Shown here: positions 2,230-12,867 of the stretch, piece after piece
Layout: each line of letters starts with the position of its first letter
How positions within the stretch are numbered: position 1 is the stretch's first letter
Source of the DNA: an uncultured Lachnospiraceae bacterium
Lineage (GTDB): Bacteria; Bacillota; Clostridia; Lachnospirales; Lachnospiraceae
NCBI GenBank assembly: GCA_945788595.1
Contig: CALZMS010000008.1
Span: 1-13,422, forward strand
Direction: 5' to 3'
Length of the DNA stretch: 13,422 bases
The notes under the pieces: model-generated
Told to the model about the DNA's origin: nothing
Database searches by the model: none
The model's input: the letters and a program-made list of their open reading frames with translations, nothing else
Made by a program: the position numbers and the translations under genes

Positions 2230-3255
2230 ATGAAATTAATGAAAACAGAAAAAGCTGTCGGACAGGTATTATGTCATGATATTACCCAGATTATTAAAGG
2301 TGTGACAAAGGACGCGGTTTTCCGTAAAGGTCATGTGATCCGGGAAGAGGATATCCCGGTACTTCTCAGTGTGGGCAAGGATCATGTCTATATCTGGGAG
2401 AATAATGAGAACATGCTACACGAGAATGATGCGGCAGAGATCCTTCGGGATATGTGTCAGGGGAAATATATGCATCCCTCAGAACCGAAGGAAGGAAAAA
2501 TAGAACTGATCGCGGACATTGACGGCCTTTTGATGGTAGATGCGGATCGTCTGCGGGAAGTCAATGCTCTGGGGGAGATGATGATCGCCACCCGTTCTTC
2601 TGGATTTTGTGTAAAGAAGGGCGAAAAACTGGCCGGTACGAGGATCATTCCCCTTGTAATTGAGAAAGAAAAAATGGAGCATGCAAAAGAGGTGGCAGGA
2701 GATAAGCCGCTGTTGCAGCTGTATCCGTTAAAACCGAAGAAATATGGTGTGATCACTACGGGTAATGAGGTGTTCCATGGCCGTATCCAAGATACCTTTA
2801 CACCGGTGATCGAAGGGAAAATGGCCGAATTCGGATGCGAGATGATTTCTCACGTTATTTTGGACGATGACCACGAAAAGATTACGGCAGCTATCCGCAG
2901 TATGCTGGATGAAGGCTGTGAAATGGTGATCTGTACCGGCGGCATGAGTGTGGATCCGGATGACAAGACACCGCTGGCCATCAAAAATGCCGGTGTGAAT
3001 ATTGTAAGCTATGGCGCTCCGGTACTTCCGGGAGCCATGTTCCTGGCTGGCTACAGTGAAGACGGACGTCCGGTCTGCGGTCTTCCGGGTTGTGTAATGT
3101 ACGCAAAGCGCACGATCTTTGATCTGGCACTTCCCAGACTGCTGGCAGATGTACCGGTGACAAAAGAATGGCTCGCCGGGCTCGGCATAGGCGGACTGTG
3201 CCTGAATTGTGAAGTCTGCCATTTCCCGAACTGCAGTTTCGGTAAGGGAATCTAA
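2230..3255 (+). CDS. MoeA-like molybdopterin-binding protein with C-terminal Cys cluster
   Basis: 341-residue protein related to MoeA/MogA, shorter than the roughly 400 residues of classical MoeA. Residues 1-165 are a divergent N-terminal region resembling MoeA's linker domains. Residues 170-310 form the MoCF (molybdopterin-binding) domain, with VITTGNEV (174-181), TGGMSVDPDD (236-245) and GLPGC (284-288). The last 25 residues carry four cysteines (324, 327, 330, 335) in the pattern C-x2-C-x2-C-x4-C within a Gly/Phe-rich tail, which could bind a metal or Fe-S cluster. Family members are expected to bind molybdopterin or its adenylate during molybdate insertion. GGTGAG at 2219-2224 is the likely binding site for ribosomes. 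The next gene is the molybdate-binding protein, which supports a role in Mo-cofactor assembly. True moeA activity is not proven. Confidence 0.85.
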   Translation: MKLMKTEKAVGQVLCHDITQIIKGVTKDAVFRKGHVIREEDIPVLLSVGKDHVYIWENNENMLHENDAAEILRDMCQGKYMHPSEPKEGKIELIADIDGLLMVDADRLREVNALGEMMIATRSSGFCVKKGEKLAGTRIIPLVIEKEKMEHAKEVAGDKPLLQLYPLKPKKYGVITTGNEVFHGRIQDTFTPVIEGKMAEFGCEMISHVILDDDHEKITAAIRSMLDEGCEMVICTGGMSVDPDDKTPLAIKNAGVNIVSYGAPVLPGAMFLAGYSEDGRPVCGLPGCVMYAKRTIFDLALPRLLADVPVTKEWLAGLGIGGLCLNCEVCHFPNCSFGKGI

Positions 3256-3283
3256 ATTTGACAGGAGTATAAGGTAAAAAGGA

Positions 3284-3390
3284 GATTTTTCTGATAAAGG
3301 CGGCCGGAAGAAACGGATGGGCCGCGGTAAGCATGCTTTCTCCGGGCATGATGAAAAAGACCATAATGTGTAAATCCACATTTTGGAATA
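3284..3390 (+). ncRNA. Candidate structured leader (possible Mo-cofactor type riboswitch) before modA
   Basis: The 167-base gap before modA is unusually rich in hairpins. GCGGCC (3300-3305) pairs with GGCCGC (3320-3325) around a 14-base purine-rich loop that holds GAAAC. CATGC (3332-3336) pairs with GCATG (3346-3350) around a loop containing TCTCC. CCATAATGTG (3361-3370) pairs with CACATTTTGG (3377-3386) with one mismatch. The TCTCC loop is complementary to GGAGA (3411-3415) in the modA ribosome binding site. This is the right place for a molybdenum- or tungsten-cofactor sensing RNA (Rfam RF01055), but I could not confirm the family consensus by eye. An alternative is a simple processing or attenuation structure. 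Confidence 0.45.
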
Positions 3391-3422
3391 TATTTTGAGA
3401 AAATCAAAAAGGAGAGTGTAAC

Positions 3423-4355
3423 ATGAAAAACAAAGTATTTGCAGCAATGATGGCAGCAGCCATGGTGCTGGGGATGACCGCATGCGGTTCTTCCAGTGAG
3501 GCAAAGGCACCTGCAAGCGAGACAAAGGCATCCGGGACACAGGAATCTGCTCCGGCAGAGACATCTGCAGCGGAAGCTTCTCAGGCAGAGGTATCTCAGC
3601 CGGCAGAAAGCGGTGACGCAGTAGAACTTACCGTTTTTGCGGCAGCCAGTATGACAGAGACACTGACGGAGATTGCCGAACTGTATAAGGCAGTTGCTCC
3701 TGAGGTAAGCCTGGTATTTAACTTTGACTCTTCAGGAACTCTGAAAGAGCAGATCGAGCAGGGAGCGGAATGTGATCTGTTCATCAGCGCCGGTCAGAAG
3801 CAGATGAATCAGCTGGATATCACAGCAGATTCGGAAGTCAACACAGACGGACTGGATTTTGTGGAGCAGGGCACCCGTATCGACCTTCTGGAGAACAAGG
3901 TCGTTCTGGTCGTTCCGGAGGACAATCCGAAGAATATCAACAGTTTTGATGATATGATCGCCGGATTAAAGGATGGATCTATCCTTCTGGCTATGGGAAA
4001 CAGCGATGTTCCTGTGGGACAGTACACACAGAAGATCCTGGCTTACTATGAGTTAAGCGAAGAAGAGCTGGCCAATACCGGTTCCATCACCTACGGCACC
4101 AACGTAAAAGAGGTTACTACCCAGGTTTCCGAGGGTGCTGTGGACTGTGGTGTTATCTATTGTACAGACGCGTTCAGCGCAGGTCTTACTGTTGTGGACA
4201 ATGCAACAAAAGAAATGTGCGGACAGGTTATCTATCCGGCGGCCGTATTGAATGTCAGCACACACAAAGATGAGGCAAAGGCTTTTCTTGATTATCTGAG
4301 TACAGAGGAGCCTATGGCAGTATTTGAAAATGTTGGTTTTGCACCGGTGGAATAA
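3423..4355 (+). CDS. modA: Molybdate ABC transporter substrate-binding lipoprotein ModA
   Basis: 310-residue exported lipoprotein that captures molybdate (or tungstate) outside the membrane and hands it to ModB-ModC. A lysine-containing signal peptide and hydrophobic stretch end at the lipobox MTAC, making Cys21 the lipidated residue. Residues 22-65 are a flexible Ser/Ala/Glu linker. The binding domain starts at about residue 68 with TVFAAASMTETL; ligand-contact counterparts of known ModA proteins appear in AAASM, FDSSGTL, SDVPVGQY and VDCGVIYCTDA. The last contains the Tyr that closes on the oxyanion. The start is fixed by AAAAAGGAG (3406-3414) 8 bases upstream. A folded leader lies upstream and a long hairpin downstream. 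Tungstate specificity cannot be excluded from sequence alone. Confidence 0.95.
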   Translation: MKNKVFAAMMAAAMVLGMTACGSSSEAKAPASETKASGTQESAPAETSAAEASQAEVSQPAESGDAVELTVFAAASMTETLTEIAELYKAVAPEVSLVFNFDSSGTLKEQIEQGAECDLFISAGQKQMNQLDITADSEVNTDGLDFVEQGTRIDLLENKVVLVVPEDNPKNINSFDDMIAGLKDGSILLAMGNSDVPVGQYTQKILAYYELSEEELANTGSITYGTNVKEVTTQVSEGAVDCGVIYCTDAFSAGLTVVDNATKEMCGQVIYPAAVLNVSTHKDEAKAFLDYLSTEEPMAVFENVGFAPVE

Positions 4356-4403
4356 TAGAGATACACGTATCGGTGAAGTAGACATTGCATGTCAGATATG
4401 AGG

Positions 4404-4446
4404 ATATACACGAAGGAATGCGTATATGCATTCCTTTGTGTTATAT
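4404..4446 (+). promoter_or_regulatory. Long hairpin between modA and modB (attenuator or 3'-end stabiliser)
   Basis: CACGAAGGAATGC (4409-4421) pairs with GCATTCCTTTGTG (4428-4440), 13 pairs with one G-U, around the loop GTATAT. Five further A-T pairs (4404-4408 with 4442-4446) extend it past a single bulged T at 4441. No run of Ts follows, so it is a poor intrinsic terminator. A likely role is to protect the modA 3' end or partly reduce read-through, so that binding protein exceeds permease. It sits in the 182-base gap before modB. Confidence 0.6.
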
Positions 4447-4537
4447 GAATATTCGATTAAATTATCAGATAGACGAAAAGATGGTCCTGTAGGTCGTTTT
4501 TTCGGTAAATTGCTGGATATATATTGAAGGAGTATGA

Positions 4538-5215
4538 ATGGACTGGTTTCCGTTATATAACAGTTTGAGAATTGCGGCGATTGCCTGTACTGCGGTATTT
4601 TTTCTGGGCATTTTTTTCGCATATTATATTGCAAAGCTGTCGAGGGTGCTGAAGGGTGTGCTGGATGTGATCCTGACACTTCCTATGGTATTGCCGCCCA
4701 CGGTATGCGGTTATTTTTTACTAGTCATTTTTGGACCGAAGCGTCCGGTGGGCCAGTTTCTGGCCAAATGGGGAATACGATTTTCCATGACCTGGTACGG
4801 AGGTATTCTGGCGGCGGCAGTGGTGGCTTTCCCGCTGATGTATCGTACGGCCAGAGGCGCTTTTGAAAGTTTTGATGAAACCTTGGCCTGGAGCGGGAAA
4901 ACTCTGGGATTGTCCAATACTTACGTGTTCTGGCGCATTCGTATGCCGGCATGTAAACAGGGAATTATTGCGGGTACGGTTCTGGCTTTTGCCAGAGCGT
5001 TGGGAGAATATGGCGCCACCAGTATGCTGATCGGGTATACGCCGGGAAGGACAGCCACGATCTCTACCACAGTATATCAGTTATGGCGCACCAACGATGA
5101 AGGGGGCGCTTTCCGCTGGGTGTTAGTGAACCTGGCGATCAGTACGGTTGTCTTGCTTTGTGTCAACCTCCTGGAACAAAAAAACAGGCAGGGAGGAAAA
5201 AAGCATGAGTCTTGA
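4538..5215 (+). CDS. modB: Molybdate ABC transporter permease ModB
   Basis: 225-residue integral membrane protein forming the molybdate channel as a homodimer bound to two ModC subunits. About five hydrophobic spans are visible, beginning at residues 10-30 and 40-65. The family signature VLPPTVCGY lies in the second, and the EAA-type cytoplasmic loop that docks on ModC is EYGATSMLIGYTPGRT. Length is normal for ModB. AAGGAG (4527-4532) lies 5 bases before the ATG; another ATG at 4534 is out of frame. Its last 11 bases overlap the start of modC, indicating translational coupling. Confidence 0.95.
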   Translation: MDWFPLYNSLRIAAIACTAVFFLGIFFAYYIAKLSRVLKGVLDVILTLPMVLPPTVCGYFLLVIFGPKRPVGQFLAKWGIRFSMTWYGGILAAAVVAFPLMYRTARGAFESFDETLAWSGKTLGLSNTYVFWRIRMPACKQGIIAGTVLAFARALGEYGATSMLIGYTPGRTATISTTVYQLWRTNDEGGAFRWVLVNLAISTVVLLCVNLLEQKNRQGGKKHES

Positions 5216-6254
5216 AGTTAAAATCGAAAAAACACTGGGCAATTTTACGCTGAAAACAGAATTTATCAGTAATGGCGAACCTACAGCACTTCTCGGGGCT
5301 TCCGGTTGTGGAAAAAGCATGACCCTTCGCTGTATTGCGGGGATCATTCGGCCGGATAAGGGAAGAATCGTGTTAAATGGCCGTGTTCTGTTTGACAGTG
5401 AAGCAAAGATAGATCTGCCGCCCCAGAAGCGGAAGGTGGGATATCTGTTTCAGAATTATGCCCTGTTTGATAATATGACCGTGGAGCAGAATATCGCCTG
5501 CGGTATTTCTGCGGAAAAGAACCGGACGGAAAGAAAAAAGAAAGTTGCCGCCATGATTGAGCGTATGCAGCTTACAGGTCTGGAGAAAAATAAACCTCAT
5601 CAGCTTTCCGGCGGCCAGCAGCAGCGGGTGGCGCTGGCCCGAATTCTGATCGGCAAACCGGAGATAGTACTTTTGGATGAGCCTTTCAGCGCATTGGACA
5701 GTTATCTTAGGGATCGTCTTTTGACGGAGGTGAAGGATCTTCTGGGAGGACTTCAGCAGGAAATGATGCTGGTGACCCACAGCAGAGATGAGGCTTATAC
5801 TATGTGTGAAAAGCTTCTGGTCATGGATCATGGAAAAATCTGTGATCAGGGCAATACTAAGGAAGTTTTTGCGAATCCCCACAGTATTCCGGCGGCAGTA
5901 CTTACCGGATGCAAAAATATTTATGCCGCCCGGGCAGTGGGAGAAACTACTGTGGAGATCACAGATCTTGGCGTGACGATGGAAACCGGCCGGCCGGTAC
6001 GGCCTGATCTGTGTGCCGTGGGTATCCGTGCCCATTATTTTAATCCGAAGGCAAAGACAAATCTGTTCCCTGTGGTACTGACGGAGGAAGTGGAATCGCC
6101 CTTTGAGTGGACGTTGAAATTTCGTTATCCGGAGCAGAAAGAGGGGACTCCTGATGTCTGGTGGCGGGTGACGAAGGATAAAAAACTGCAGACATTTCCG
6201 CAGGCGCTGGGTATTGCGCCGGCAAATCTGCTGCTTTTGTATCCTTATGAATAA
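5205..6254 (+). CDS. modC: Molybdate ABC transporter ATP-binding protein ModC
   Basis: 349-residue ATPase powering molybdate import. Walker A is GASGCGKS (31-38), the Q-loop glutamine is Gln83 in LFQNYALFD, the signature is LSGGQ (134-138), Walker B is VLLDEP (155-160) followed by the FSALD D-loop, and the switch histidine is His191. Residues 235-349 form a C-terminal regulatory domain of the MOP/TOBE type expected in ModC, where oxyanion can bind and inhibit transport. The ATG at 5205 is chosen because GGGAGG (5191-5196) lies 8 bases upstream and the protein begins with the first beta strand. An upstream in-frame start at 5148 would add 19 residues lying wholly inside modB. The 11-base overlap with modB couples their translation. 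Confidence 0.94.
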   Translation: MSLEVKIEKTLGNFTLKTEFISNGEPTALLGASGCGKSMTLRCIAGIIRPDKGRIVLNGRVLFDSEAKIDLPPQKRKVGYLFQNYALFDNMTVEQNIACGISAEKNRTERKKKVAAMIERMQLTGLEKNKPHQLSGGQQQRVALARILIGKPEIVLLDEPFSALDSYLRDRLLTEVKDLLGGLQQEMMLVTHSRDEAYTMCEKLLVMDHGKICDQGNTKEVFANPHSIPAAVLTGCKNIYAARAVGETTVEITDLGVTMETGRPVRPDLCAVGIRAHYFNPKAKTNLFPVVLTEEVESPFEWTLKFRYPEQKEGTPDVWWRVTKDKKLQTFPQALGIAPANLLLLYPYE

Positions 6255-6286
6255 AAGGTTTAACTGAGTTAAAGGAGTGAAATGGC

Positions 6287-7300
6287 ATGAGGAAGTTGAT
6301 GGATACCCTGGTGGATCGTCTGGAACAGGGGAAAAAAAGTGTACTGGTGACCATCGTGCAGAACGCAGGAAGCGCGCCTCGAACGGTGGGAGCTGCCATG
6401 CTGGTGGGAGAAGAAGGCTATCTTGCAGGCACCATCGGCGGAGGTATGCTGGAATATAAAGCCACGCAGCAGGCTGTGGAAGATCTGCGTATGGAAAAAA
6501 GCTGTATGAGGGCCTATCGTCTGACAAGAGACGAAGTGGCCGGTCTTGGCATGGTCTGCGGTGGGAATGTGGATGTCTTATTTAAAGTAATCCTGCCGGA
6601 AAAGGGGAATCTGGAGACAGCAGTGCAGATTCTGGAATGCATGCAGCAGTACCGGAAAGGCTGGCTGGTGCAGTCCCTTTCCGGGGAAGGATTTGGATTT
6701 GTAAATGACGCGGATATTGCCTGGGGGATTGCAGAGGAAAAATTTCCGCTGTTGAAAGGTACGGGCAGTGAGCGGGCTTTTGTGGCAGAAAATGATGAAG
6801 GAGAGGCATTTTATATCTGTGATCTGGAAAATACCAGCCGTGTTTATGTTTTTGGCGGCGGGCATCTGGCCCAGGAACTGGTTCCTTTACTTTCTCATCT
6901 TGGTTTTCGCTGTATTGTCACGGATGACCGTGAAGAATTTTCTACAAAAACACTGTTTCCCACTGCGGAAGAAGTGCATACCAGAGATTTTAATTGTCTT
7001 GAGGGTCAGTATGACATTCATGAGCAGGATTATATTGTTGCCGTGACCAGAGGACATATGGGAGATCTGGCGGTGGAAAAATTTGCTCTTCGCACTCCTG
7101 CATACTATATCGGTGTGGTGGGCAGCAAAAAGAAGATCGAAGCGGTCAACGCAAAGCTCAGAGAAGCCGGGTTTACGCAGGAAGATCTTGACCGGGTGGT
7201 CAATCCCATCGGTCTGCCTATCCAGAGTGAGACTCCGGCAGAGATCGCTGTCAGTATTGCGGCACAGCTGATCGAAAAACGGGCCAATTATAAAAAGTAA
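6287..7300 (+). CDS. xdhC: XdhC/CoxI family molybdenum-hydroxylase maturation protein
   Basis: 337-residue protein of the XdhC/CoxI family. Known XdhC binds Mo-cofactor, promotes its sulfuration and delivers it to xanthine dehydrogenase-like enzymes. The N-terminal XdhC domain shows GSAPRTVGAAMLV (28-40), GTIGGGMLE (48-56) and MVCGG with Cys91, a conserved possible ligand. The C-terminal Rossmann domain begins with VFGGGHLA (188-195) and carries VVGSKKK (278-284), typical of the family. AAAGGAG (6271-6277) sits 9 bases before the ATG; an ATG at 6282 is in another frame. Presence of this gene points to the sulfo-molybdenum hydroxylase class as client, yet no such enzyme lies in this window. 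It is followed after 36 bases by moaA. Confidence 0.92.
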   Translation: MRKLMDTLVDRLEQGKKSVLVTIVQNAGSAPRTVGAAMLVGEEGYLAGTIGGGMLEYKATQQAVEDLRMEKSCMRAYRLTRDEVAGLGMVCGGNVDVLFKVILPEKGNLETAVQILECMQQYRKGWLVQSLSGEGFGFVNDADIAWGIAEEKFPLLKGTGSERAFVAENDEGEAFYICDLENTSRVYVFGGGHLAQELVPLLSHLGFRCIVTDDREEFSTKTLFPTAEEVHTRDFNCLEGQYDIHEQDYIVAVTRGHMGDLAVEKFALRTPAYYIGVVGSKKKIEAVNAKLREAGFTQEDLDRVVNPIGLPIQSETPAEIAVSIAAQLIEKRANYKK

Positions 7301-7336
7301 TGAGTGAAGATAAAAAAAGAACGGAATGAATATACA

Positions 7337-8317
7337 ATGACGGATAATCAGGGAAGAACAATAGACTATCTGCGGATATCGGTGACGGACCGATGCAATC
7401 TGCGCTGCGTATACTGCATGCCGGAAGAGGGGATGGAAAGCATTCCCCACAGCCGGATCATGACCTACGATGAGATCATCAGGGTCTGCCGGATACTGGC
7501 AGAGCATGGGCTGAAAAAAATCAAGATTACCGGAGGAGAGCCGCTTGTCCGCAAAAATGTTGTCTGGCTGATCTCGGAAATAAAAAAGATCCCGGGGATC
7601 ACCAGTGTGACGATTACCACCAACGGCGTGCTTCTGAAGGAATCTTATGAGGCTCTGGTGGAGGCGGGGATCGATGCGATCACGGTAAGTCTGGATACGC
7701 TGGATCCGGAACTTTTCCGGCAGATCACCCGCAGAGATGAATTATCTCCGGTGCTGGAAGGGATTCAGCTGGCTGCAAAACAGGCAAGGGTACCTTTAAA
7801 AATTAATTGTGTGCCCATGATGGGGATTCAAAATCAGGGGATTTTAAATTTGCTGGAATATGTCCGCAAGTTTGCTGTGGATATCCGATTTATTGAGATG
7901 ATGCCCATCGGACTGGGAAAACAGTTCGAATTCGTATCAGAAGACGCACTGCGAAAGCTGATCGAGGATACCTATGGCGAAATGACGCTGTATTGTGAAA
8001 GAAGGGGAAATGGTCCCTGCAGATATTATGATGTGCCCGGATTTACAGGAAAAGTTGGTTTCATCAGTGCCTTGAGCCATAAGTTCTGTCATGAATGCAA
8101 CCGGGTGCGGCTGACCGCAGACGGATTTTTAAAGACCTGCCTGCAGTATGACTGCGGTGTAAATTTAAAACCGGCACTCTCTGAGGGAGTATCGGATGAC
8201 ACACTGTGGAAGATGATGAAAGAAGCTATATTGCAGAAACCAAAAGCCCATCATTTTGAGGAAGAAAAAAAGGATGCTGAGGATGAGGAAAGAGGAATGT
8301 CTCAGATCGGCGGATAA
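7337..8317 (+). CDS. moaA: GTP 3',8-cyclase MoaA (radical SAM)
   Basis: 326-residue enzyme that converts GTP to 3',8-cyclo-7,8-dihydro-GTP, the first step of molybdopterin synthesis. The radical-SAM cluster ligands are C-x3-C-x2-C at Cys20, Cys24 and Cys27; the SAM-contacting GGEPL is at 66-70. The C-terminal cluster that holds GTP uses Cys251, Cys254 and Cys268. The protein ends in SQIGG, retaining the functionally important C-terminal Gly-Gly. The ATG at 7337 is chosen by family alignment (TDNQGRTIDYLRIS start); a GTG at 7304, four bases after xdhC, would add 11 lysine-rich residues and cannot be ruled out. The ribosome binding site is weak (ACGGA, 7321-7325), suggesting coupling to xdhC translation. 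The expected partner moaC is absent nearby. Confidence 0.95.
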   Translation: MTDNQGRTIDYLRISVTDRCNLRCVYCMPEEGMESIPHSRIMTYDEIIRVCRILAEHGLKKIKITGGEPLVRKNVVWLISEIKKIPGITSVTITTNGVLLKESYEALVEAGIDAITVSLDTLDPELFRQITRRDELSPVLEGIQLAAKQARVPLKINCVPMMGIQNQGILNLLEYVRKFAVDIRFIEMMPIGLGKQFEFVSEDALRKLIEDTYGEMTLYCERRGNGPCRYYDVPGFTGKVGFISALSHKFCHECNRVRLTADGFLKTCLQYDCGVNLKPALSEGVSDDTLWKMMKEAILQKPKAHHFEEEKKDAEDEERGMSQIGG

Positions 8318-8471
8318 AAACTGAGGTTGGAACGATATTAAGTTTTTAGGCAGGTCAATAGAAAAGACTGAGAATGGAGCAGGAGAATAGCTTCATATTG
8401 GTAAATAAAAGGAAATGAGGATGGGACGAGAAGAAGGTTCCAGACCGGTAAACAGCGAGGAGGACGCGAAA

Positions 8472-9395
8472 ATGGGAAAGGTGATTGCCACATGTATCAG
8501 TGAGGCGAAAGGAATTCAGAAACACAACGTACATTCTGTGAAACTGATTGAGGATTTCGGTATTGAAGGAGATGCCCATGCCGGAAAATGGCACAGACAG
8601 GTGAGCCTGCTGTCCTGGGATAAGATCGAAGAGTTTCGGAAAAGAGGCGCAGAGGTCATCGACGGAGCTTTTGGAGAAAATCTGGTGGTGCAGGGCATAG
8701 ATTTCCGTTCACTTCCGGTAGGAACAAAGTTTATCTGCAACGATGTTATTTTGCAGCTGACCCAGATTGGCAAAAAATGTCATCAGGGATGTGCGATTTT
8801 TCAGCAGATGGGTGACTGTATCATGCCAAGAGAGGGTGTATTTACCAAAGTTCTGCGGGGCGGCGTGATCTCTGAGGGAGACGAGCTGGAGATTTTGTCC
8901 TATCCGCTGCGTGTGGCAGTGATCACTTCCAGTGATAAAGGTTATGCGGGGGAACGCGAGGATAAGAGCGGCCCTGCTATTGTACAGATGATGCAGGATG
9001 CAGGATATCAGATCGTGGAAACTGTGATCCTTCCGGATGAGAAAGAGATGTTAAAAGAAAAAATGGCCCAGATCTGTGATGAGAATACGGCGGATCTGAT
9101 CCTGACCACCGGCGGAACCGGATTTGCTCCCCGGGATGTGATGCCTGAGGCCACAAAGGAAATCTGCCAGAAAGAGGTGCCGGGTATACCGGAAGCCATG
9201 CGGGCCTACAGCTTACAGATCACCGGGCGTGCCATGCTCAGCCGCGCTGCAGCCGGAATCCGTGAGAAAACACTGATCGTCAACATGCCGGGAAGTCCCA
9301 AAGCAGTGGCAGAATGTCTGGAATATATTCTGCCCCATCTTGAGCATGGGCTGGATATTTTGACGGAACGCGGCGGAGAGTGTGCGAGAAAGTAG
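8472..9395 (+). CDS. MOSC domain-MoaB/MogA fusion protein
   Basis: 307-residue fusion. Residues 1-144 are a MOSC domain (GIEGDAHAGKWHRQVSLLS, about 30-48; GAFGENLVV, 65-73; two Cys at 103 and 107), a fold that binds Mo-cofactor or carries sulfur in MoCo sulfurases. Residues 146-295 are a MoaB/MogA domain with TTGGTGF (212-218), Asp222 and MPGSP (272-276), expected to adenylylate molybdopterin before metal insertion. GAGGAGGA (8457-8464) lies 7 bases before the ATG at 8472, and the MOSC fold starts there. An in-frame ATG at 8421 also has an AAAGGA 7 bases upstream and would add 17 polar residues. The fusion physically links an early cofactor step with a late carrier step. It is the last gene of the molybdenum operon. 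Confidence 0.92.
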   Translation: MGKVIATCISEAKGIQKHNVHSVKLIEDFGIEGDAHAGKWHRQVSLLSWDKIEEFRKRGAEVIDGAFGENLVVQGIDFRSLPVGTKFICNDVILQLTQIGKKCHQGCAIFQQMGDCIMPREGVFTKVLRGGVISEGDELEILSYPLRVAVITSSDKGYAGEREDKSGPAIVQMMQDAGYQIVETVILPDEKEMLKEKMAQICDENTADLILTTGGTGFAPRDVMPEATKEICQKEVPGIPEAMRAYSLQITGRAMLSRAAAGIREKTLIVNMPGSPKAVAECLEYILPHLEHGLDILTERGGECARK

Positions 9396-11071: not shown

Positions 11072-11449
11072 ATGACAAAATATGAAAAAGATATCTTTGC
11101 TATCATAAACACCTCCCGCGACCATTTGACTGTAGAACAGATTTTCCAGAGACTTAAGGAAAAACATCCGCAGGTGGTGCTGGCCACTGTATATAATAAT
11201 TTGAATCGATTGCTGGAGGAGGGGCTGATCCGCAAGGTTTCTGTGGAGGGAATGCCCGACAGATATGACAAAATGGAAAAACATGATCATCTTGTATGCC
11301 AGTGCTGTGGGAAACTGTCAGATGTGACACTGGAAGATCTGACGGCTTCATTGAAAAAACAGCTGGGAGACGATGTATTGTCGTATGATCTGAAGGTATT
11401 TTATATTTGCCCGGCATGCAGAGAAAAGGAACAGAGAGGACAGGCATAA
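11072..11449 (+). CDS. perR: Peroxide-responsive Fur-family repressor PerR
   Basis: 125-residue Fur-family regulator. An N-terminal winged helix (about 1-60, with VVLATVYNNLNRLLEEG as recognition region) is followed by a dimerisation/metal domain. Structural zinc sites are Cys76/Cys79 and Cys113/Cys116. Counterparts of all five regulatory-metal ligands of Bacillus PerR are present: His18, Asp66 (RYD), His71, His73 and Asp84. In PerR the iron-bound form loses DNA binding when His residues are oxidised by H2O2. The Asp at position 66 is the residue that favours PerR over Fur. The protein is about 20 residues shorter at the N-terminus than the Bacillus protein. GAAAGGA (11059-11065) sits upstream. 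The operator in its promoter and the rubrerythrin gene after it support the PerR call. Confidence 0.9.
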   Translation: MTKYEKDIFAIINTSRDHLTVEQIFQRLKEKHPQVVLATVYNNLNRLLEEGLIRKVSVEGMPDRYDKMEKHDHLVCQCCGKLSDVTLEDLTASLKKQLGDDVLSYDLKVFYICPACREKEQRGQA

Positions 11450-11526: not shown

Positions 11527-12072
11527 ATGAGTGAGAAACACAAATACGCAGGTACACAGACTGAGAAAAATCTGGAGGCTGCTTTTGCCGGCGAGTCCCA
11601 GGCAAGAAACAAATATACGTATTTTGCTTCCGTAGCAAAGAAGGAAGGATATGAGCAGATCGCGGCTCTTTTCTTAAAAACTGCAGATAATGAAAAAGAA
11701 CACGCAAAAATGTGGTTTAAAGAGTTGAAAGGTATCGGTGATACCCAGGCAAATCTGGAAGCTGCCGCAGATGGCGAGAATTATGAGTGGACAGATATGT
11801 ATGCCGAATTTGCCAAGACAGCAGATGAAGAAGGTTTCCCGGAGCTGGCAGATAAGTTCCGTCTGGTGGCTGAGATCGAGAGACGTCATGAGGAGAGATA
11901 CCGCACACTGTTAAATAATGTAAAGACCGCAGCTGTATTTGAAAAGAGCGAGGTCAAGATCTGGGAGTGCCGCAACTGTGGCCATATCATCGTTGGAACC
12001 AAGGCACCGGAGGTGTGTCCGACCTGTAATCATCCCCAGAGCTATTTTGAGGTACGTTCTGAGAATTATTAA
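11527..12072 (+). CDS. rbr: Rubrerythrin (peroxide reductase)
   Basis: 181-residue cytoplasmic di-iron protein that reduces H2O2 to water in anaerobes, using electrons from rubredoxin-type donors. Residues 1-135 form the ferritin-like four-helix domain with ligands Glu23 (GESQARN), Glu56 and His59 (NEKEHAKMW), Glu94 and the Glu117/His121 helix. Residues 145-181 are the rubredoxin-like domain with an Fe(Cys)4 site: Cys148, Cys151, Cys164 and Cys167. Length is normal. A strong AAGGAGGAAA lies 7-8 bases before the ATG. It follows perR by 77 bases and is the expected target of the PerR operator upstream. A natural electron donor gene follows but is broken. Confidence 0.96.
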
Positions 12073-12073
12073 T

Positions 12074-12193
12074 TGTGCAGGAAATGTTGGTGAATCCATG
12101 GATATTGTCAACACCTGTCTTTTCCTGGCAAGTGACCTTGCAAGCTATGTAACCGGTCTGACTGTTCGCGTTGACGGCGCAGCTATGGCCTGA
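12074..12193 (+). pseudogene. C-terminal remnant of a short-chain dehydrogenase (FabG/SDR)
   Basis: Between rubrerythrin and the rubredoxin gene one frame reads through a segment ending TGA at 12191-12193 that contains CLFLASDLASYVTGLTVRVD near its end. This is the unmistakable C-terminal block of SDR oxidoreductases (LFLASD-x4-YVTG-x3-VDG). Only about 40 codons remain; the NAD-binding GxxxGxG and the YxxxK catalytic site are missing, and no start codon with a ribosome binding site precedes it. The usual VDGG has become VDGA. It is therefore a deletion remnant lying directly after the rubrerythrin stop. Confidence 0.8.
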
Positions 12194-12211: not shown

Positions 12212-12867
12212 ATGAACAAAAAAGCAATGTACAGTCTCTCTTACGGACTGTTCGTACTGACCGCTCGGGTGGGAGGTAAAGACAATGGCTGTATCATTAA
12301 TACAGCAGGTCAGGTCACTTCCGAGCCCAACAGAATCAGCATCGCGGTGAATAAGAGTAATTTGACCCATGACATGGTAAAAGAGAGCGGAAAATTCAAT
12401 ATCTCTATCCTAAGTGAGAAAGCCAGCTTTGATATTTTTCGATTTGTTAAGCTATTTATATCATTTTTGATATTTTTAAGCATTTCGGCTTCCAGTCCGG
12501 AAAAGACGTGGATAAATTTGCCGATTATGCAGCCTGCAAGCGCAGTGAGAACGGCCTCTATTATATCACAGAGGGAACCAATGCCTATATCAGCGCTACC
12601 GTAGAGCAGACTGTGGACCTGGGAACCCATACACTGTTTATCGCTGCTGTAGACGATATGGATGTACTGGCTACAGAGCCGTCTGCAACCTATGCTTATT
12701 ATCAGTCTTCCATCAAACCGAAACCGGAGGAGAAAGCCCCGGCAGGAAAGACCGTATGGCGCTGCACAGTATGCGGCTATATCTATGAGGGAGAAGAACT
12801 TCCGGCTGACTTTACCTGTCCGTGGTGTAAACATCCTGCATCCGATTTTGAGAAGGTTGTGCAGTAA
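12212..12867 (+). pseudogene. hrb: High-molecular-weight rubredoxin (flavin reductase + rubredoxin), frame broken by a 38-bp insertion
   Basis: The gene encodes the flavoprotein-rubredoxin that passes electrons from NAD(P)H, via FMN, to rubrerythrin or flavodiiron proteins. The first 72 codons (starting KKAMYSLSYGLFVLTAR) match the flavin-reductase domain and are preceded by AAGGAGGA 9 bases before the ATG. The frame then shifts at a 38-bp insertion. From 12466 a second frame continues the same protein: HFGFQSGKDVDKFADYA, the rest of the flavin domain, and a C-terminal rubredoxin domain with CTVCGY and CPWCKHP as its Fe(Cys)4 site, ending TAA at 12865-12867. Removing 38 bp gives a 205-residue protein of normal size. 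As read, the first frame stops at 12604 after 130 residues and lacks rubredoxin, so the product is probably non-functional. Confidence 0.88.
12428..12477 (+). repeat. 12-bp direct repeat flanking 26 AT-rich bases inside hrb
   Basis: TTTGATATTTTT occurs at 12428-12439 and again at 12466-12477. The offset of 38 bp is not a multiple of three. Between the copies lie 26 bases very rich in A and T. A hairpin ATATCA-TTTT-TGATAT (12458-12473) overlaps the second copy. Recombination or slippage between copies would delete 38 bp and restore the gene. Confidence 0.85.

Follow-up and report, generated by a model that had tools for sequence, protein, structure and literature searches.

The question raised by this locus is whether the 38 extra bases that break a flavin reductase/rubredoxin gene are a functional element, the mark of a recent mutation, or an artefact. 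The window, i.e., the whole 13,422-nt stretch of DNA that was analysed, is contig C8 of a draft genome that is 57.1% complete in 291 contigs. Scans of the organism's own contigs covered 101 contigs with 794,740 bases. The genome used for comparison was G002, the closest relative as judged by the flavin reductase/rubredoxin gene. The features at the locus are the following.

11072..11449, + strand: Fur-family regulator gene (PerR-like), 5' of rubrerythrin (PF01475, E 1.7e-21)
11527..12072, + strand: rubrerythrin gene, intact (NF045767, 253.4 bits, above the cut-off of 200)
12070..12193, + strand: short-chain dehydrogenase gene remnant, at most the last ~40 codons (alignment to G002)
12212..12439, + strand: left half of the flavin reductase/rubredoxin gene, 76 codons from the ATG at 12212, including repeat copy 1 (PF01613)
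12428..12439, + strand: direct repeat copy 1, TTTGATATTTTT
12440..12465, + strand: 26-nt AT-rich spacer
12458..12473, + strand: weak 6-bp A/T hairpin, ATATCA-TTTT-TGATAT
12466..12477, + strand: direct repeat copy 2, TTTGATATTTTT
12478..12867, + strand: right half, i.e., the remaining flavin reductase domain and the rubredoxin domain, in another frame (PF01613; PF21349 for 12508-12864)

The gene at 12212-12867 of this gut bacterium encodes a flavin reductase domain and then a rubredoxin-like domain, the product being a helper protein in oxygen stress. An earlier, sequence-only reading named it high-molecular-weight rubredoxin, a term that reportedly occurs in the title of a paper on Moorella. 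The same reading described both halves as intact but out of frame, and this was borne out. Both halves are open and match their families, the frames differ, and the break follows codon 76 through the 38 extra bases. Compared with G002, the left half showed 96.1% amino acid identity and a dN/dS of 0.020, and the right half showed 95.3% and 0.017. As judged from these ratios, which are like that of rubrerythrin (0.021 against G002), selection on both halves was strong until very recently. If the insertion is real, the product would have 130 aa, 76 from the left half followed by 54 read out of frame, and no rubredoxin domain. In that case, the right half could in principle be restarted at the GTG at 12508.

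The two repeat copies (12428-12439 and 12466-12477) are exact 12-mers with a start-to-start distance of 38, so the 12-bp direct repeat and the 38-bp frame-breaking insertion stand as first described. A repeat of at least 12 nt was reached in 5 of 2000 dinucleotide shuffles of the 50-mer, which makes it unusual for this composition. The GC content is 16% over the 50 nt and 23% in the spacer, against 47% in the window, and 617 of 789,791 50-nt windows in the 101 own contigs were equally AT-rich. The insert had been called AT-rich and hairpin-forming; the former is clear from these values, and the hairpin is present but weak. On the - strand, the 50-mer folds somewhat better than chance (z -3.44, 5 of 200 shuffles as good).

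The comparison with related strains, proposed in the sequence-only reading, gave 97 uninterrupted loci out of 98 with a tblastn match to the gene; at the remaining locus, L019, only one half was matched. The count leaves out the window's own copies (L001 and L021) and the A1 alignment rows. L002/L022 and L003/L040 are of equal length and probably the same contigs, so that at least two of the 97 loci would be duplicates. At each of these 97 loci, the match extends at least to residue 70 on the left and begins no later than residue 7 on the right, so that the gap is extrapolated over a few residues. One further locus, L020, gave no match to the gene. The extra length relative to these strains is 38 nt. 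In L022 there is a single target site, TTTGATATTTTC, and the word at the site in G002 is TTTGATATTTTCAAACATTTC, without the repeat. Because recent selection was strong and 97 of the 98 matched loci are free of the insert, the break is either new or not real.

A reversible on/off switch had been suggested, in which the gene would be toggled by slippage at the 12-bp repeats or by recombination between them. Short direct repeats can recombine, deleting the stretch between them. Deletion between the present copies is mechanically plausible, and with exact repeats at a frame-breaking spacing the locus resembles phase variation by short direct repeats. It differs from such systems in that no second state was seen: all 97 related loci that can be read through lack the insert, and L019 offers one half only. 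The tail encoded by the insert shares no word of more than four residues with any of 214 database proteins, i.e., the matches listed as best and three others. No template for the return of a lost 26-bp spacer was found in the own genome (57.1% complete) or in 396 family genomes. Since the spacer is single-copy where searched, its loss by recombination would be irreversible without a donor, and the change is one-way as far as the search extends. The switch is therefore not supported and is considered very improbable. The statement that deletion restores the gene exactly holds as arithmetic, i.e., 38 nt that relatives lack, and it is not evidence for a switch.

Further copies of the spacer had also been proposed as a search target. 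In the own genome, with up to 3 mismatches, only the window itself matched; this genome is 57.1% complete. With the same tolerance, none was found in 4 genomes of the genus or in 396 other genomes of the family, which were drawn from a larger group. A 121-base query found no match among the phage records, and the viral contigs had no exact match to the 26-mer; an inner 18-mer of the spacer was present in one viral contig. A templated origin within the own genome was considered and rejected. The longest words in common with the rest of the 101 own contigs were 14 nt for the insert and 13 nt for the spacer, no longer than those of 200 shuffles each.

These results bear on a recent one-off insertion, in which a staggered break took up 26 bp of AT-rich DNA, or a mobile element left an excision scar, with 12 bp duplicated and the gene knocked out in this strain. 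The anatomy is that of a target duplication made in one step, which is the mechanically simpler course: the exact 12-bp repeat flanks foreign-looking DNA, and a single site is found in L022. The dN/dS of about 0.02 in both halves is as expected for a fresh loss. In likeness to a mobile-element scar, the locus has the direct repeat and the one site in relatives, but the spacer has no bounding inverted repeat of at least 8 nt. An insertion element or MITE would also be expected in other copies, and no second copy of the spacer was found in the own genome, which is incomplete, in the 396 family genomes, in the phage records or, as an exact match, in the viral contigs.

The neighbouring dehydrogenase gene also speaks for the insertion. 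In G002 it is whole (247 aa, L002:740-1483) and lies between the rubrerythrin gene and the flavin reductase/rubredoxin gene. In the window it has decayed to its 3' end, with most of the gene missing; the alignment is clear from 12089 and tentative upstream of it. Its dN/dS of 0.143 over 34 codons indicates looser constraint. An extra 12-nt gap proposed within the remnant is tentative and leans on a 14-nt match to the left of the gap. As this gene has decayed nearby, gene loss in this stretch is credible, and we hold the one-off insertion to be a serious possibility with somewhat less than an even chance. Further upstream, the product of 11072..11449 had the PerR model as its top NCBIfam match, with 72.7 bits, well under the cut-off of 180.

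The wider genome was searched for inserts of the same kind. Comparing the 101 own contigs with 41 stretches of G002 gave 106 alignments. Of these, 68 were kept (at least 70% identity and at least 300 columns), and they covered 218,094 of the 794,740 own bases, i.e., about a quarter. The comparison gave 76 insertions of 10-200 nt, seven of them with both flanks at least 70% identical. A flanking repeat of at least 7 nt was found in only one of the 76, the rubredoxin-gene insert, and the next longest was 6 nt. No family of repeat-bounded inserts was found in the 218 kb of this incomplete genome compared with G002.

In the own contigs at large, 63 repeat pairs of at least 12 nt occur at a spacing of 20-80, and many of the 60 listed lie in tandem arrays. 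Direct repeats with spacings of 55 and 72 nt were also noted at 4055-4190 of L166 and 4813-5005 of L114. There are 61 AT-rich islands, and eight, including this insert, lie within stop-to-stop frames of at least 150 codons on either strand. The longest repeats of the other seven are 6-8 nt, or 13 nt in a triplet run. By a stricter test (50 nt with at most 8 G+C and both 100-nt flanks at 45% GC or more), 1 of 769,490 windows qualified, in L133, and the rubredoxin-gene insert narrowly fails.

Programmed ribosome bypassing would have the ribosome take off at the first repeat and land on the second, skipping 38 nt. The insert would then be a real bacterial bypass element, and the seemingly broken gene would still yield flavin reductase/rubredoxin, as a bacterial equivalent of the inserts in yeast mitochondria. 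The hallmarks of bypassing were taken from PMC5009743, which describes the 50-nt bypass of T4 gene 60. As in that gene and in the mitochondrial inserts of Magnusiomyces, according to the same source, a short frame-breaking insert lies in a conserved gene with matched take-off and landing codons on both sides (TTT GAT ATT TTT); the skipped 38 nt are near the 50 nt of gene 60, and both gene halves are strongly constrained. Unlike those systems (PMC5009743), the window has no stop codon after the take-off site, where CGA follows, and no significant fold on the coding strand: the 50-mer RNA reached z -1.43 (21 of 200 shuffles as good), and 91 nt around the insert z -0.28 (68 of 200). The insert is also single and not conserved, with no second such insert in the 218 kb compared with G002 and none found in relatives. 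Both the bypass and the existence of a true bypass element here are regarded as extremely unlikely.

A different kind of evidence came from a database protein, P0001, which was among the best 120 of 3988 matches when proteins were searched with the left product of the broken gene. It has 204 aa and is encoded on a 1335-base contig. Its residues 1-76 are the left half of the window gene (76 of 76 identical). Both words that are private to the window were found in P0001 alone among the 214 proteins compared, and one of them in P0111. These 214 were the top-listed entries from two sets of 3988 and 5435 matches, together with three further proteins. Because entries of the protein collection are clustered at 90% identity, another cluster may conceal an intact protein of the same species. 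P0001 apparently comes from the same species as the window.

After FDIFKH, P0001 reads LIKT, and the right half of the window gene reads FGFQSG. Among 12 candidates, the remainder of P0001 matched three other proteins, i.e., P0212, P0213, and P0214. FDIFKHLIKT is contained in P0214, which has a weak match to the eukaryotic family RMC1_C (25.8 bits, below the cut-off of 26.9). At a second common word, TEMKDI, P0001 switches to P0212/P0213. No significant match was found among solved structures for the P0001 tail, P0212 or P0214. These three proteins, P0212-P0214, look to us Entamoeba-like, presumably. Thus P0001 has the look of a mosaic in three parts, this bacterial gene and two putatively eukaryote-like fragments, with both joins at shared six-residue words. 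At the DNA level the joins would be about 18-20 nt, as deduced from the protein words, and joins at words of this size point to assembly at a small word size or to template switching. On its sequence, the best reading of P0001 is a chimeric contig, probably an artefact, which would mark the FDIFKH word as chimera-prone. Among 601 20-mers around the gene in G002, this word has the highest AT content; with the two halves of the window gene considered separately, several of the 583 20-mers are level at 25% GC. Two other database proteins are unusual at this locus. P0003 has the gene product fused to a dehydrogenase tail by Pfam match, and P0004 seems by eye to continue into the opposite strand of the gene.

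The 38 bp are then most likely a chimera from library preparation or short-read assembly, with no functional element in them; we give this about an even chance and prefer it to the one-off insertion. Given the P0001 mosaic at the same word, such a chimera, which the sequence-only reading had brought up only as a refutation, is at least as likely as the target duplication or the one-off mutation that it also offered. The AT-rich word coding for FDIFKH would resemble words of a co-sequenced, very AT-rich and probably eukaryotic genome. A left-half contig that ends inside this word would have been fused with another contig, in which 26 foreign nt precede the shared word and the right half, and the 12-bp repeat would be the shared word read twice. 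That the window insert arose like the P0001 mosaic, that this joining step took place and that the 26 nt have a foreign source are each presumed.

Several results are consistent with the chimera. P0001, whose left half is identical, has a mosaic join at precisely this word, which is the most AT-rich around the gene in G002; under the one-off insertion this would be a coincidence, helped by AT-richness. The gene is strongly constrained (dN/dS 0.02) and uninterrupted in 97 of 98 matched loci, the draft genome is 57.1% complete in 291 contigs, and no second copy of the spacer turned up in the own genome or among the 396 other genomes of the family. Older short-read assemblers made inter-species chimeric contigs on simulated data (PMC3100316). 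The draft genome, the AT-rich junction word and the mosaic database entry with the same left half are like the chimeric contigs described there (PMC3100316). The window differs from them in that the host gene resumes after 26 bases and that the foreign source was not found.

The chimera also has points against it. The spacer does not encode KY, the residues preceding FDIFKH in P0214, so that the P0214 gene, in the form seen, is not its origin. No source was found in the genomes, phage records and viral contigs searched, and sharing of the junction word with foreign sequence was seen at the protein level, for P0001 and not for the window spacer. Two switches or an odd join are needed for the window to return to the host gene, and a one-step insertion with target duplication is simpler. 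Several other words in the window's own halves are about equally AT-rich. No other insertion with a flanking repeat longer than 6 nt occurs among the 76 (218 kb), so there is no sign of systematic error. AT-rich contig ends were considered as a mark of chimeras and rejected, as 20% GC or less was seen in 1 of 202 ends against 7 of 2020 inner windows.

The chimera or a one-off mutation is the ordinary explanation, and a switch or a bypass is unlikely. The locus calls for caution, since a repeat-bounded, frame-breaking insert in a draft genome can mimic a switch, and here the AT-rich word at the insert is also a join of the mosaic P0001, a database protein that shares the left half. P0001 is likewise a warning that protein collections may hold chimeric entries. 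A genuine insertion would mean that an anaerobe has recently lost a conserved neighbour of rubrerythrin, beside a second decayed gene. Such a loss would be mildly interesting for oxygen tolerance and would bring no new mechanism.

Elsewhere in the window, a molybdenum cofactor and transport cluster was observed at 2230-9395. Its members are a molybdopterin-binding protein, a probable ModABC assigned by eye, XdhC, a MoaA-like protein, and one protein in which a MOSC domain is fused to a molybdopterin-binding domain.
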